From assembly GCF_018221685.1 (NCBI RefSeq), contig NZ_JAGJTM010000005.1, forward strand, positions 317,501 to 381,500: DNA of 64,000 nucleotides. Reading direction: 5' to 3'. This document shows, one piece after another, positions 57,631 through 62,915 of this stretch. The stretch is from Bombella apis (GTDB taxonomy: Bacteria; Pseudomonadota; Alphaproteobacteria; Acetobacterales; Acetobacteraceae). Within the stretch, counting starts at the first letter, position 1. Each line of letters begins with the position of its first letter. The notes beneath the pieces were generated by a model that worked only from the letters and a program-made list of their open reading frames with translations, searched no databases and had not been told where the DNA came from. A program made the translations under genes and the position numbers.

Positions 57631-58185
57631 ATAGCTAGACCGCCGTTTCACGCCGCCCCGAACCGCGATGGGCCACGTGTCAATGAAGAGATCCGGGTGC
57701 CGCAGGTACGTGTTATCGACGCCGAAGGCGAAATGATCGGCATCATGCCGACGCGTGAGGCTCTTTCCCGTGCTTTTTCTGAAGGACTGGACCTGCTGGA
57801 AATCAGCCCGACGGCGGAGCCCCCGGTTGCGAAGATCCTCGATTACGGCAAGTTCAAGTACGAACAGCAGAAGAAACGTAACGAAGCCCGCAAGAAGCAG
57901 AAGGTCATCGAGATCAAGGAAGTGAAGGTCCGCCCGGGTACGGGTGAGCACGACTTCCAGACCAAGGCCAAGGCCGTCCGCTCCTTCCTGGAGGAGGGTG
58001 ACAAGGTCAAGGTTTCCCTGCGCTTCAAAGGGCGTGAAGTGGCCCATCAGGACCTCGGTGCCAAGATGATGCATCGCATCCGTGAGTCCGTGGAAGATAT
58101 TGCCAAGGCCGAACAGATGCCTCGCCTTGAGAATCGCCAGATGATCATGATTCTGGCCCCGAGCAAGCAGCGGGACACCAAATGA
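57631..58185 (+). CDS. infC: Translation initiation factor IF-3, probable ATA start
   Basis: A 184-residue factor that monitors start-codon pairing and prevents subunit joining. Both domains are complete (VNEEIRVPQVRVIDAEGE, DLLEISPTAEPPVAKILDYGKFKYE, then EIKEVKVRPGTGEHD and VSLRFKGREVAHQDLG). The best Shine-Dalgarno (CAGGAG) ends directly at an ATG at 57625, which leaves no spacer. The ATA at 57631 is six bases further on and gives the N-terminus ARPPFH. infC genes often use rare AUU/AUA/AUC starts for self-regulation. ATGs at 57601 and 57625 are in frame but badly placed. Confidence 0.9.
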   Translation: MARPPFHAAPNRDGPRVNEEIRVPQVRVIDAEGEMIGIMPTREALSRAFSEGLDLLEISPTAEPPVAKILDYGKFKYEQQKKRNEARKKQKVIEIKEVKVRPGTGEHDFQTKAKAVRSFLEEGDKVKVSLRFKGREVAHQDLGAKMMHRIRESVEDIAKAEQMPRLENRQMIMILAPSKQRDTK

Positions 58186-58232
58186 TGTTTCCGGCCACCC
58201 TGTCCTGAAGGTGGCTTGAAACATGCTCCATG

Positions 58233-58270
58233 AAAACCCCCGGTCCTGCATGGCAGAGCCGGGGGTTTTT
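58233..58270. terminator. Terminator downstream of infC
   Basis: AAAACCCCCGG and CCGGGGGTTTTT form the stem around a 15-base loop. It ends thrS-infC and may also serve metF from the other side. Confidence 0.88.
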
Positions 58271-58336
58271 ACCTTCATGACCCCACGTTGCAGCGCCCCT
58301 CCGGTGAAGAAGGAGCGCATGAGTACGGGAACACCC

Positions 58337-59215
58337 TCAGGCCACGTTCTCCACCAGAGCATGGCAGCGCTGGCGGCCCAGCAACGTGCAGAGAGTTGAC
58401 GTGGGTGCGCTCTGATTGAGCGTGTAGAAATGGAAATGCTCCACCCCTTCATCTCTCAGACGCTGGCAGATGCGGTCTGTCACCACGGCACTCAGGCGGG
58501 AGCGGATCGGAGCCAGATCATCCACCCCCTCAAACAGAGCTTTGAGTTCCTCCGGCACGGAGGCACCGCACATCCGGGCAAAGCGCCATGCCTGCGACGC
58601 CCGACCTATGGGCAGGATGCCCGGCACGATGGGCCTGGTGATTCCTGCCTTCACGGCACGATCCCGAAAACGCAGAAAACTCTCGGGGTTGAAAAAAAAC
58701 TGCGTGATGGCCCTGTCTGCCCCGGCATCAAACTTCTCCTTGAGATGATCGATGTCTGACTGGGACGACTCCGCTTCCGGATGAGTCTCCGGATAAGCTG
58801 CGACAGAAATCTCGAAAGGAGCAACCTTCTTCAACCCCGCCACGAGGTCTGCTGCATAGCGGTAGCCCTGCGGGTGTGGCACGTAGGGCGTTGCCGCCGC
58901 CCCTTTTGCCACCGGCGGATCCCCCCGCAAAGCTACGATATGCTTCACTCCATTGTCCCAATAGGCTCTGGCCACATCGTCCACCTCTCCCCGGGACGCA
59001 TTGACGCAGGTCAGATGCCCCGCAAGAGGAGTCGATACCCTGGCCGACATCTGCCGCAAGGTCTCCAGAGTCCGTTCCCGTGAGGAACCGCCTGCCCCAT
59101 AGGTGACAGACATGAAGCGGGGCTCATAAGCCGTGAGCCGCTGGGCGACACGCAGCAGAGCTGCGGATTTTTCATCCGTTTTCGCCGGGAAGAATTCAAA
59201 TGAGACCTCAGGCAT
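58337..59215 (-). CDS. metF: Methylenetetrahydrofolate reductase
   Basis: A FAD enzyme making 5-methyl-THF, the methyl donor for methionine synthesis. The 292-residue barrel has VSFEFFPAKTD, PRFMSVTYGAGGSSRERT, GHLTCVNASRGEVDDVARAY, HIVALRGDPP and ITQFFFNPESFLRFRDRA, all diagnostic. The ATG at 59215 follows AAAGGA by nine bases; the longer frame runs into the regulator gene. It lies 26 bp after the regulator and is co-transcribed with it, and it supplies the substrate of the divergent MetE. Confidence 0.95.
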   Translation of the reverse strand: MPEVSFEFFPAKTDEKSAALLRVAQRLTAYEPRFMSVTYGAGGSSRERTLETLRQMSARVSTPLAGHLTCVNASRGEVDDVARAYWDNGVKHIVALRGDPPVAKGAAATPYVPHPQGYRYAADLVAGLKKVAPFEISVAAYPETHPEAESSQSDIDHLKEKFDAGADRAITQFFFNPESFLRFRDRAVKAGITRPIVPGILPIGRASQAWRFARMCGASVPEELKALFEGVDDLAPIRSRLSAVVTDRICQRLRDEGVEHFHFYTLNQSAPTSTLCTLLGRQRCHALVENVA

Positions 59216-59241
59216 GATGCCAGTTCCTTTTACATACGGTT

Positions 59242-60210
59242 CTACGTAACCCTTGATTGCTGATCCAACGGCAAGCGGCCCATCCAGAGCTTCACCGTCA
59301 ATTCTCCATCGAGAGAGACAGGGGGGTCTGCTTCCAGCCCTGCCGCCTCGAACCATTGTTTCATGCGGTCATCACTGAAGCCGAGATACATGTGGGCATC
59401 CCGTGTGCGGAGTTCCTCACGGTCATGCAGGGCAAAATCCACCACCAGAAGACGCCCGCCGGGGCTGAGAATCCGGGCCGACTCGGCAATGACGGCGGCC
59501 GGGTGCTGCGCATAACGCAGCGCCTGATGCAGAATGGTCAGATCAGCCGAGCCTGCAGCCAGTGGCAGGGCATAGAAATTGCCCTGCCGCAGCTTGATCT
59601 CTTCTCCATCCGCCGTCCGGTTCTCTTCCAGCTTGACCCGGGCCAACCTCAACATGGAGGGGCTGCGGTCAAACCCGATGGCGCTTTCACACTGCGGGGC
59701 CAGAAGCTCGAGCATGCGCCCTGTCCCCGTCCCGATATCCACAACACGCCCGAGCGGTCCATCACCCACCAGTTTCACGATGGCCGACTCGACAGATTCT
59801 TCCGAAACATGCAGGGAGCGAATCGCATCCCACTCCGCTGCATGAACCTCAAACCAGTCCTCGGCCTCACCCATGCGGACATTCCGCACGGCCTGGAGGC
59901 GTTGCCGGTCCGCCCGGCCCATCTCGTCATCATCCTCCTCGTGATAACGCCGCCAATGGTCCAACGCTGCAAAAATGGGCTCCAGGTCATTCTCGTCCCC
60001 AAGGGCAAGAAAAACCCAGCTTCCTTCTTTGCGGCGCTCCACCAGTTCGGCCTCCGCCAGCACCTTCACATGCCGGGAAACCCGCGGCTGGCTCTGGCCC
60101 AGAACCTGGGCCAGTTCGCCAACTGACAACTCCATTTCGCGCAGCAGGCGCAAAATTCTCAGACGCGTCGGCTCTGCAAGAGCCTGAAAGATTATAAGAG
60201 CACGATCCAT
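59242..60210 (-). CDS. ArsR-family regulator fused to a SAM-dependent methyltransferase
   Basis: A 322-residue two-domain protein. Residues 1-95 are an ArsR winged helix (FQALAEPTRLRILRLLREM, ELAQVLGQSQPRVSRHVKVL). Residues 135-310 are a class I methyltransferase fold with motif I VVDIGTGTGRMLELL, the acidic FDRSPSML and the later LVVDFALHDREELR. The N-domain lacks the CxC metal sites of metal sensors. Its location between metF and metE suggests it senses SAM or S-adenosylhomocysteine, like the SahR regulators of methionine metabolism. The start at 60210 lacks a Shine-Dalgarno, and the palindrome lies just upstream. Confidence 0.88.
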   Translation of the reverse strand: MDRALIIFQALAEPTRLRILRLLREMELSVGELAQVLGQSQPRVSRHVKVLAEAELVERRKEGSWVFLALGDENDLEPIFAALDHWRRYHEEDDDEMGRADRQRLQAVRNVRMGEAEDWFEVHAAEWDAIRSLHVSEESVESAIVKLVGDGPLGRVVDIGTGTGRMLELLAPQCESAIGFDRSPSMLRLARVKLEENRTADGEEIKLRQGNFYALPLAAGSADLTILHQALRYAQHPAAVIAESARILSPGGRLLVVDFALHDREELRTRDAHMYLGFSDDRMKQWFEAAGLEADPPVSLDGELTVKLWMGRLPLDQQSRVT

Positions 60211-60217
60211 GCAGACT

Positions 60218-60241
60218 ATATATAATGACTTCATTATATAT
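60218..60241. promoter_or_regulatory. 24-bp palindromic operator in the regulator-metF / metE divergent region
   Basis: ATATATAATGA, a CT centre, then TCATTATATAT: 11-bp perfect arms. A TATAAT hexamer lies in each arm, one on each strand (60221-60226 plus, 60238-60233 minus), so a dimer bound here would cover -10 elements facing both ways. It begins eight bases upstream of the regulator start. This is the probable binding site of the ArsR-type protein. Confidence 0.75.
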
Positions 60242-60487
60242 GCAATATCTGTTGACACATTTAAAAAGCCCTGTCACTTCTGGTTCCCGAAGCACAGCCC
60301 GGCCTGTCTCCCCACCCCGTGCAGGAGATGGACCGGACGCTTTTCCCGGCTGCCTCCCGGAGGCAGTCCCGATCTCATCGGTGGGGCAGATACCGCCCGC
60401 CCGTTTGCCTTTCTCCCCCGGCGGCACATCCCGCAGGGTGGTGGAAGGCAAATGGAACGGTGCCCACCCAACGCCAGGAGGCATGTC
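60242..60487 (+). other. Leader region of metE
   Basis: About 245 bases separate the palindrome from metE. It contains a TTGACA at 60252-60257 without a matching -10, and a near-perfect hairpin (CTGCCTCC then GGAGGCAG, about 60349-60365). I could not match it to a cobalamin, SAM, SAH or T-box leader. A transcript starting in the palindrome would have a long, possibly regulatory, 5' region. Confidence 0.4.
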
Positions 60488-62818
60488 ATGACCGTACGCG
60501 TCGCAACACTGGGCTTTCCCCGTATCGGTGGTCGCCGTGAACTGAAAAAGGCTCTGGAAAGTTTCTGGGCCGGCAACAGCAGCGAGGCCGAGCTGCTCCA
60601 GACCGCCGCCAGCCTCCGCAAGGAGAACTGGACCCGCCAGAAGGAGCAGGGAGCGGACATCATCCCCTCCAACGATTTCTCCCTCTATGACCATGTGCTG
60701 GATACCAGCGCCCTGGTCGGAGCCGTGCCGGATATCTATGGCCACAAGGGTGGCAAGGTGGACCTCACCACTTATTTTGCCATCGCCCGTGGCCGTCAGG
60801 TCGCCGGTGGGGAAGAGGCCGGGGACCATGCCCACGACTGTTCCTGTCATCACCATGCCGCCACCGATGTTCCCGCTGCGGAAATGACGAAGTGGTTCGA
60901 CACGAACTATCACTACCTCGTGCCGGAATTCAAAGAAGGGCAGAGCTTCAGCCTCTCCTCCACCAAGATCATTGACGAATACAGGGAAGCCAAGGCTCAG
61001 GGCATCGAGACACGCCCTGTCCTGCTGGGGCCGGTAAGCTTCCTGCTGCTGGGCAAGGCCCACGGTGCAGCCTTCAACAAGCTGGACCTGCTGCCGGGGC
61101 TGCTCTCCGTCTATACCGAGGTGCTGCGTGAGCTGCGTCAGGCTGGGGCCGAATGGGTCCAGATTGATGAGCCGACCCTGGTGCTGGACCTTGATGATGC
61201 CACCCGCAAGGCTTTTGCCCTGGCCTATCAGAGCCTCACCAGTGCCGTTCCTGACATCAGGCTGCTGCTGACGACCTATTTCGGCGGGCTGGCTGACAAT
61301 CTGGAGACAGCCCTGTCCCTGCCGGTTCATGGCCTGCATGTCGATCTGGTCCGTGCCCCGCACCAGCTGGAGGACGTCGTTGCCAAGGCACGCCCGGACC
61401 TGCTGCTCTCCCTCGGCGTGATTGATGGCCGGAACATCTGGAAGGCCGACCTTTCCAGAATTCTGAAGCACATCGCTCCGGTTGCCGCCAAGCGTGACAT
61501 CATCGTGGCCCCGTCCTGCTCCCTGCTGCACACGCCGATTGATCTGGAGCGTGAAACGCAGCTGGATGCCGAGGTGAAGAACTGGCTGGCCTTCGCCGTG
61601 CAGAAGATTGCCGAACTCGCCACCATCGCCAAGGCCCTCAATGAAGGCCATGAGAGCGTGAAGGCCGTTCTGGACGCCTCCGATGCTGCTGCCGAGAGCC
61701 GCCGCACCTCCACACGCATCCATAATCAGGATGTGAAGAAGCGTGCCGCCCAGAAGGATGCCAAGCTGACACAGCGTCAGTCCGCCTTCCCCGTCCGCCA
61801 GAAGGCGCAGGAAGAGGCTCTGAGGCTGCCGCTCTTCCCCACCACCACCATCGGCTCCTTCCCGCAGACGAAGGAAGTGCGTCAGGCCCGTGCCCGCCAC
61901 GCCAAGAAGGAACTCTCCACGCAGGATTACGTGGCCTTCCTCCAGAAGGAGACGGCATCCGCCATCAAGTGGCAGGAAGAAGTCGGGCTGGACGTCCTCG
62001 TGCATGGCGAGTTCGAGCGCAACGACATGGTGCAGTATTTTGGTGAGAAGCTTTCAGGCTTCGTCTTCACCAAACATGCCTGGGTGCAGTCCTACGGTTC
62101 CCGCTATGTCCGCCCGCCCATCATCTTTGGTGATGTCTCCCGCCCGGCAGCCATGACGCTCGACTGGTGGCAGTATGCACAGTCCTGCTCCAGGAAGCCG
62201 GTCAAGGGGATGCTGACAGGCCCGGTCACGATCCTGAACTGGTCCTTCGTCCGTGACGATCAGCCACGCTCGGAGACATGCCGCCAGATCGCCTTCGCCA
62301 TCCGTGACGAAGTGCAGGACCTGGAGAAGGCTGGCTGCCCCGTCATCCAGATTGACGAAGCCGCCCTGCGTGAGGGTCTCCCCCTGCGCCGCAAGGACTG
62401 GCAGCATTATCTGGACTGGGCCGTGGAAAGCTTCCGTGTCACGGCCAGCGGCGTGCAGGACAAGACGCAGATCCACACCCACATGTGCTACTCCGAGTTC
62501 AACGACATCATCCAGGCCATCGCCGACATGGATGCTGACGTGATCTCCATCGAGACGGCACGCTCCAAGATGGAACTGCTGGAAGCCTTCACCGATCACA
62601 AATACCCTGCCGAAATCGGCCCGGGCGTGTATGACATCCACTCCCCCCGTGTTCCGTCCGTCGAGGAAATGGTCGAGCTGCTGCGTGCGGCAGAGAAGAA
62701 GGTTGCCCGCCGCCAGCTCTGGGTGAACCCGGATTGCGGCCTGAAGACCCGCAACTGGAAGGAAGTCCGCCCGGCCATCACCAACATGGTCAAGGCTGCC
62801 GAGATCCTGCGTGGCTGA
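60488..62818 (+). CDS. metE: Cobalamin-independent methionine synthase
   Basis: A 776-residue zinc enzyme transferring methyl from 5-methyl-THF-triglutamate to homocysteine. The N-terminal GFPRIGGRRELKKALE and the C-terminal catalytic barrel are intact, with zinc ligands in HTHMCYSEF (His, Cys), the Glu in VISIETARS and the Cys in NPDCGLKTR. Unusual is an insertion at residues 111-125 containing HAHDCSCHHH, between AIARGRQ and DVPAAEMTKWFDTNYHY, where homologues are shorter. The ATG has AGGAGG six bases upstream. Confidence 0.97.
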   Translation: MTVRVATLGFPRIGGRRELKKALESFWAGNSSEAELLQTAASLRKENWTRQKEQGADIIPSNDFSLYDHVLDTSALVGAVPDIYGHKGGKVDLTTYFAIARGRQVAGGEEAGDHAHDCSCHHHAATDVPAAEMTKWFDTNYHYLVPEFKEGQSFSLSSTKIIDEYREAKAQGIETRPVLLGPVSFLLLGKAHGAAFNKLDLLPGLLSVYTEVLRELRQAGAEWVQIDEPTLVLDLDDATRKAFALAYQSLTSAVPDIRLLLTTYFGGLADNLETALSLPVHGLHVDLVRAPHQLEDVVAKARPDLLLSLGVIDGRNIWKADLSRILKHIAPVAAKRDIIVAPSCSLLHTPIDLERETQLDAEVKNWLAFAVQKIAELATIAKALNEGHESVKAVLDASDAAAESRRTSTRIHNQDVKKRAAQKDAKLTQRQSAFPVRQKAQEEALRLPLFPTTTIGSFPQTKEVRQARARHAKKELSTQDYVAFLQKETASAIKWQEEVGLDVLVHGEFERNDMVQYFGEKLSGFVFTKHAWVQSYGSRYVRPPIIFGDVSRPAAMTLDWWQYAQSCSRKPVKGMLTGPVTILNWSFVRDDQPRSETCRQIAFAIRDEVQDLEKAGCPVIQIDEAALREGLPLRRKDWQHYLDWAVESFRVTASGVQDKTQIHTHMCYSEFNDIIQAIADMDADVISIETARSKMELLEAFTDHKYPAEIGPGVYDIHSPRVPSVEEMVELLRAAEKKVARRQLWVNPDCGLKTRNWKEVRPAITNMVKAAEILRG

Positions 62819-62829
62819 AGGCTGAAAGA

Positions 62830-62885
62830 GATGGAACCCGGCTTCGTTACCTAGCACGATCCATCCAATGAAGCCGGGTTCCGGG
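62830..62885. repeat. 16-bp inverted repeat after metE
   Basis: GGAACCCGGCTTC and GAAGCCGGGTTCC are perfect complements; pairing extends to 16 bp with one G-U. The loop is 21-24 bases. No T-run follows, so it is not a standard terminator; it may stabilise the metE mRNA 3' end. Confidence 0.6.
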
Positions 62886-62915
62886 GGGCGATTTAAAACA
62901 GTCTCCCCCACATGG

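Follow-up and report, generated by a model that had tools for sequence, protein, structure and literature searches.

Why does a perfect palindrome lie a few bases before a regulator gene, between that gene and metE, in Bombella apis? The genus Bombella lives with bees, and the genome considered here comprises 2.04 Mb in 6 contigs; the window is a stretch of 64,000 nucleotides from it. As listed in Table 1, the leftward sahR-metF unit and the rightward metE gene flank the palindrome. Domain searches and gene positions confirmed the arrangement described in the first-pass annotation, namely an ArsR/methyltransferase fusion followed by metF, with metE divergent. The palindrome is also as described, with two 11-bp arms and a 2-nt centre (ATATATAATGA-CT-TCATTATATAT), while its spacing from the sahR ATG, given there as eight bases, is actually seven (60211-60217). 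In summary, I explain the locus as a SahR-type repressor-operator module, with a probability of roughly 85%.

Table 1. Features of the sahR-metE region and related sites. Positions are those of the window unless a locus is named.
Feature	Position	Strand	Remarks
metF, methylenetetrahydrofolate reductase	58337-59215	-	PF02219 and TIGR00676 above cut-off
sahR, protein with ArsR-type HTH and class I SAM-dependent methyltransferase fold	59242-60210	-	322 aa
Proposed sahR -10, TATATA	60217-60222	-	Putative; 17 bp from -35, 6 nt before ATG
24-bp perfect palindrome	60218-60241	both	Arms 60218-60228 and 60231-60241
SahR-type operator core, 20 bp	60220-60239		ATATAA-N8-TTATAT, inside the 24-bp palindrome
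TATAAT, one per arm	60221-60226; 60238-60233	+; -	Opposite strands
Proposed sahR -35, TTGCAT	60240-60245	-	Putative, from conservation; 3 of 6 to consensus
Conserved TTGACA, proposed metE -35	60252-60257	+	Putative; 12 bp from operator core
Strong predicted hairpin, metE leader	60380-60468 (approximate ends)	+	Folding prediction; before Shine-Dalgarno
metE, cobalamin-independent methionine synthase	60488-62818	+	Pfam and NCBIfam models above cut-off
Homocysteine S-methyltransferase sites	L003 1404-1423 and 1500-1519 (G000 C4:396534-396649)		Two exact SahR-type sites
One-mismatch site, score 21.4	L042 1501-1520 (G000 C4:117059-117078)		98 bp before cysH-like gene

What kind of regulator is it? 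The ATG at 60210 was taken as the sahR start because aligned orthologues begin there; the open reading frame list has an upstream GTG at 60258, giving 338 residues. HTH_5 covers residues 14-58 and Methyltransf_11 covers residues 157-256. The N-terminal part is an ArsR-type winged helix-turn-helix (PF01022, 52.8 bits against a cut-off of 22; NF033788, 86.9 bits against a cut-off of 55), and it matches ArsR-family chains by sequence. The protein is about 99% identical to SahR of Bombella favorum and B. intestini. A SAM-binding motif, DxGTGTGR, is invariant across 13 aligned SahR rows that are 43-97% identical to the window protein. In a wider alignment of 20 rows, the D, the first and second G, the second T, and the third G are invariant and the first T is nearly so, and the R is absent from the conserved list. 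A structure model built with 20 sequences (mean pLDDT 83.6, pTM 0.61) has a helical N-terminal domain, a long helix at residues 95-132, and a class I methyltransferase domain.

SahR is known as an ArsR-family regulator that responds to S-adenosylhomocysteine (SAH) and has a palindromic operator of 20 bp (Leyn et al. 2014, PMC4239095). According to the sections of that study used here, SahR occurs in 7 of 9 Rhodospirillales and in 7 of 7 Sphingomonadales studied, its core targets are sahR, ahcY, metH, metF, and metK, with metE and bhmT added in some genomes, and its regulons are proposed to have co-evolved with ahcY. SAH dependence has been reported for the Desulfovibrio SahR (PMC8877191, PMC4239095), and SahR motifs are described as varying by taxon (PMC5343134). 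Like the SahR of alpha- and deltaproteobacteria, the window protein is an ArsR-type regulator beside methionine-cycle genes with a 20-bp palindrome, a site at its own gene, and metF, metE, and homocysteine methyltransferase as predicted targets (as outlined in PMC4239095). For SahR of Ensifer aridi, evidence of autoregulation and predicted operators at methyl-cycle genes are described; the targets given there are sahR, ahcY, metH, bhmT, and metK, whereas the predicted ones here are sahR-metF, metE, and homocysteine methyltransferase (as far as described in PMC8877191). Two other systems come close. SamR of Xanthomonadales is a SahR-like regulator with metE and metF in its regulon, but its motif as given in PMC4239095 spans 24 bp and has the core ATC-10 nt-GAT, absent from the window 24-mer. 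MetR often forms a divergon with metE, as the regulator does here; however, MetR is described as LysR-type with the motif ATGAA-N5-TTCAT (PMC4239095), while the window regulator is ArsR-type with another motif. Since domains, operator length, position, and targets fit the published description of SahR by Leyn et al. (2014), the regulator and its operator are apparently of this known kind, as the first-pass annotation had proposed.

Could the palindrome be a matter of chance? Dinucleotide shuffling of the intergenic region gave perfect arms of at least 11 nt in 2 of 2000 trials, and shuffling of its AT-rich part gave them in 1 of 2000. The palindrome is thus real and beyond chance, and conservation is the stronger evidence for an operator. 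A matrix was trained on 16 distinct sites from loci L011-L037, and sites were sought from 250 bp upstream to 60 bp into each gene with a score threshold of 21. Across Alphaproteobacteria, the best site scored at least 21 in 81 of 91 orthologue loci, a count that includes three repeat genomes (L130, L131, and L138 repeat L009, L010, and L013). Outside the training block, the same was true of 53 of 61 rows (28 of 32 in L126-L157 and 25 of 29 in L159-L187); L158 gave no usable match. The commonest class-wide forms are ATATAAAGATATCTTTATAT and ACATAAAGATATGTTTATAT; read on the sahR strand, the centre of the window palindrome is TGAAGTCA, in contrast to AGATATCT or AGATATGT in the commonest class form. 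In acetic acid bacteria, 4-15 nt separate the operator from the start codon, apart from the higher-scoring of the two operators at L019; some class-level rows, for which the choice of start is uncertain, have distances of up to about 100 nt. Family and class comparisons thus upheld the claim of a conserved operator between metE and sahR-metF.

Ten loci scored below 21 (L016, L020, L151, L154, L155, L156, L160, L169, L181, and L185). The site of L016 is degenerate (16.0) and in the right place, and L020 is near a contig end. L151, L154, L155, and L156, which belong to a subclade of Sphingomonadales, have no usual operator and instead carry CTATAT-N12/14-ATATAG (or ATATAC) repeats, with a TTGAC box beside them in three of the four. 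These repeats are perhaps a changed operator.

Does the operator recur elsewhere in the genome? The pattern AYATAA-N8-TTATRT, which is also found as 20-mers upstream of orthologues within Acetobacteraceae, matches exactly at three places in the 2.04-Mb genome. When the pattern was read backwards as a control, 7 of 11 relatives had one exact match each; about one exact match per genome can therefore be chance, so that position and conservation carry the case for an operator. With up to two mismatches, 60 genome matches were obtained versus 64 for the control, and thus the weak matches are noise. Besides the window operator, there are two exact sites, both ahead of one homocysteine S-methyltransferase gene (PF02574, 186.7 bits), at distances of 101 and 197 bp, so all three exact sites adjoin genes for converting homocysteine to methionine. 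Two other genomes of the genus were searched (G032 and G118), and each has one exact site before the orthologous gene. The homocysteine S-methyltransferase sites are unlikely to be chance because of this neighbourhood and recurrence.

Three further places in the genome have one mismatch, scoring 17.4, 21.4, and 14.1 (the last is L043). No recognisable methionine gene stands beside the 17.4 place. The 21.4 site is followed by a putative cysH-like gene and then by a cysD-like gene; it might link sulfate assimilation to the regulon. In relatives, other exact sites were found at L066, L067, L068, and L072 and at four further places outside the extracted loci. The four named loci have no match to the SahR, MetF, MetE, or homocysteine methyltransferase queries, and none of the genes of L072 belongs to methionine metabolism. 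With the control matching once in 7 of 11 genomes, these extra sites were set aside as probable chance.

How would one operator act on two divergent units? On the sahR side, the TTG of the proposed -35 is kept in every one of the 12 aligned acetic acid bacteria, of which three belong to one genus, and is followed by 17 bp, TATANN or TATGNN, 6-8 nt, and the start codon. This suggests a -10 at TATATA, with the operator core filling the spacer and overlapping the -10. Since the match to consensus is poor (3 of 6 for the -35 and 4 of 6 for the -10) and a consensus promoter scan of 60100-60500 on both strands found no promoter, the call rests on conservation. In many sphingomonad orthologues, a TTGAC box is located at nearly the same spot as the proposed -35. 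In the window, GTCTGC separates the proposed -10 from the ATG; if the promoter is real, the ATG would be the transcription start and the mRNA would have no leader.

On the metE side, no recognisable -10 follows the conserved TTGACA. All 23 distinct loci of acetic acid bacteria and Acidocella-like bacteria in which the divergent gene is metE (22) or metF (one, L142) have a TGTCAA or AGTCAA box 11-15 bp from an operator; 13 of the 23 are from Bombella or near relatives. In contrast, none of the three loci without a divergent met gene (L014, L139, and L141) has the box within 40 bp of the operator, although L139 has a near match, ATTCAA. L019 of G001 has two operators (1429-1448 and 1469-1488) between sahR and metE, so placed that each proposed promoter has one close to it, and one of them is 11 bp from the metE-side box.

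Is metE then under separate control? The operator might govern only sahR-metF, with metE having its own promoter further on and another control, such as a leader RNA. The operator core stops 12 bp short of the metE -35-like box, a cobalamin riboswitch lies in the metE leader of five scanned relatives in which metE is divergent (L015-L018 and L140), and the Bombella metE leader has the strong predicted hairpin of Table 1. However, the restriction of the box to loci with a divergent met gene and the paired operators of L019 argue against such a separation, and I regard it as unlikely. Under the SahR module, one dimer could plausibly block both units. The block would be direct at sahR-metF; at metE it is less certain, because the operator lies upstream of the proposed metE -35.

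The leader of metE has features of its own. The hairpin is kept with a changed sequence in L135 and is mostly deleted in L132-L134; a search of the window for copies of the hairpin arm found the arm at its own place and nowhere else. An Rfam scan of 58000-62900 with E values up to 5 gave four matches to unrelated families, all far below the cut-offs, and a known RNA family in the window metE leader was rejected accordingly. In relatives, cobalamin riboswitches lie between the operator and metE in L015, L016, L017, L018, and L140, the last having both metE and the riboswitch. Among the scanned genomes with a divergent metE, all four that have MetH (G042, G135, G030, and G037) have a riboswitch in the metE leader (123-133 bits), and none of the six without MetH does (B. 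apis G000, G118, G101, G136, G061, and G001). MetH (PF02965) was not found in the B. apis genome. G123 has MetH, no adjacent metE, and no riboswitch at the sahR locus, and G032 is without MetH. At the Gluconobacter locus L139, a weak match to the riboswitch (36.7 bits) lies next to sahR although no metE was found nearby, which the rule that the riboswitch follows MetH does not explain. Thus, a two-layer control of metE that follows the presence of MetH seems to exist, as judged from these genomes. Among the titles listed by a literature search on cobalamin riboswitches, none dealt with metE in acetic acid bacteria.

The proposed mechanism would be as follows. A SahR dimer would bind the palindrome and cover the spacer and the -10 of the sahR promoter, with a transcription start at or next to the ATG, and sahR-metF would be repressed. 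From the same site, the dimer would hinder the metE promoter, whose -35-like box is close by. Accumulated SAH would occupy the methyltransferase-fold domain and release the repressor. MetF, MetE, and the homocysteine methyltransferase would then increase and return homocysteine to methionine.

Is the methyltransferase domain a sensor or an enzyme? The SAM/SAH-type fold pointed out by the first-pass annotation is intact, judging from the motif, the model, and the structural neighbours. The top neighbour of the model is 1vl5 (Z 24.3, 1.5 A over 171 residues), and the nearest solved folds are methyltransferases, largely enzymes and several of them with SAH bound. Fold and motif fit binding of SAM or SAH in the model, and they do not separate a sensor from an enzyme. 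An active domain, which would make the protein both an enzyme and a regulator instead of a sensor of SAH only, is compatible with the intact motif and the enzymatic neighbours; it is nevertheless improbable, since the class-wide link to one kind of operator and the published SAH response of SahR (as reported in PMC4239095) favour sensing. A sensor role is plausible for the domain of SahR.

The first-pass annotation regarded TATAAT in both directions as the key feature of the palindrome. The two hexamers are present, one per arm on opposite strands. Both arms have TATAAT only in the window and six Bombella relatives, L126-L131 (the genomes of L130 and L131 also appear as L009 and L010), and L132-L135, whose SahR is 91-94% identical, have it in one arm. 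Among 24 exact sites upstream of orthologues, three have it in both arms, all from the genus of the window, three in one arm, and 18 in neither. That the two TATAATs are -10 boxes of overlapping divergent promoters is very improbable despite their presence in these Bombella loci, since the consensus promoter scan found no promoter using either of them and the ATATAA/TTATAT ends of the operator stay across relatives where TATAAT is lost, the next letter varying. The pair was thus rejected as a functional element on conservation and on the scan, and the double TATAAT seems to be incidental to the operator sequence.

Which genes may the regulon have lost? Unlike the SahR regulons outlined in PMC4239095, the one found here has no site at ahcY or metK, and the genome has no MetH. 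Both ahcY and metK are present, and in loci extending about 1.5 kb beyond the match the best scores are -3.7 for ahcY and 0.5 for metK, compared with 21-34 for accepted own and training sites. Thus, the first-pass proposal to search relatives for the operator succeeded beside orthologues of the regulator and failed at metK and ahcY here. In a comparison of 24 chosen genomes, a site of at least 21 was found in 0 of 12 ahcY loci of acetic acid bacteria versus 5 of 11 in other Acetobacteraceae having the locus (a sixth scores 17.4, and G105 has no ahcY match). For metK, the counts are 0 of 12 versus 2 of 12. A cut-off at 21 would exclude the degenerate L016 site as well, and the label "acetic acid bacteria" was assigned by closeness to the Bombella, Saccharibacter, Gluconobacter, and Acetobacter rows. 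G136 has weak sites upstream of ahcY (15.2, L087 2085-2104) and metK (18.3, L110 1336-1355); they count against a regulon without ahcY and metK in acetic acid bacteria and could be either remnants or chance matches in AT-rich DNA. The metK locus of G101 contains a site scoring 17.8 at a long distance from the gene.

Where did this SahR come from? In a draw of genomes from the family, 149 of 150 match SahR at an E value of 0.001; among the matches listed, 114 of 150 are below 1e-40, and the other 36 are weak one-domain matches or none. Loci were taken from the best 30 of these matches. At 1e-30, the class draw gave matches in 30 of 58 genomes. A tree of 74 rows was made, 17 of the 91 being left out as near copies, contig fragments, or one with a stop. 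Sixteen acetic-acid-bacteria rows, including one Acidocella bin and one unplaced bin, group with every one of the 12 sphingomonad rows and with a single class-level row (100/100) on a branch 0.85 long; the 16 are not one clade. Eighteen other Acetobacteraceae rows stand apart from them (100/100). No second full-length SahR copy was seen in acetic acid bacteria genomes among the matches listed. The sphingomonad grouping suggests gene transfer or the loss of an old duplicate.

What does the locus mean for acetic acid bacteria? None of the papers listed by a loosely matching literature search for Bombella and metE regulation mentions Bombella, which is weak evidence of nothing in print. The regulator and its operator are ordinary, being of a known kind, and the local variation is what could matter. 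The local twists, namely the contracted regulon, the sphingomonad-type SahR, the riboswitch following MetH, and the leaderless start, are modest. Tentatively, and at somewhat less than even odds, the SahR of the family may, in acetic acid bacteria, have given way to a sphingomonad-type sahR-metF unit rewired as a switch for homocysteine methylation, for the most part no longer coupled to SAH recycling or SAM synthesis, with a B12 riboswitch on the metE arm where MetH exists and none in MetH-less lineages such as Bombella. One such variation that could matter is the metE arm, with its B12 riboswitch seen where MetH is present. The other is ahcY, which is seemingly out of the regulon in acetic acid bacteria and bears on the co-evolution proposal as put forward in PMC4239095.
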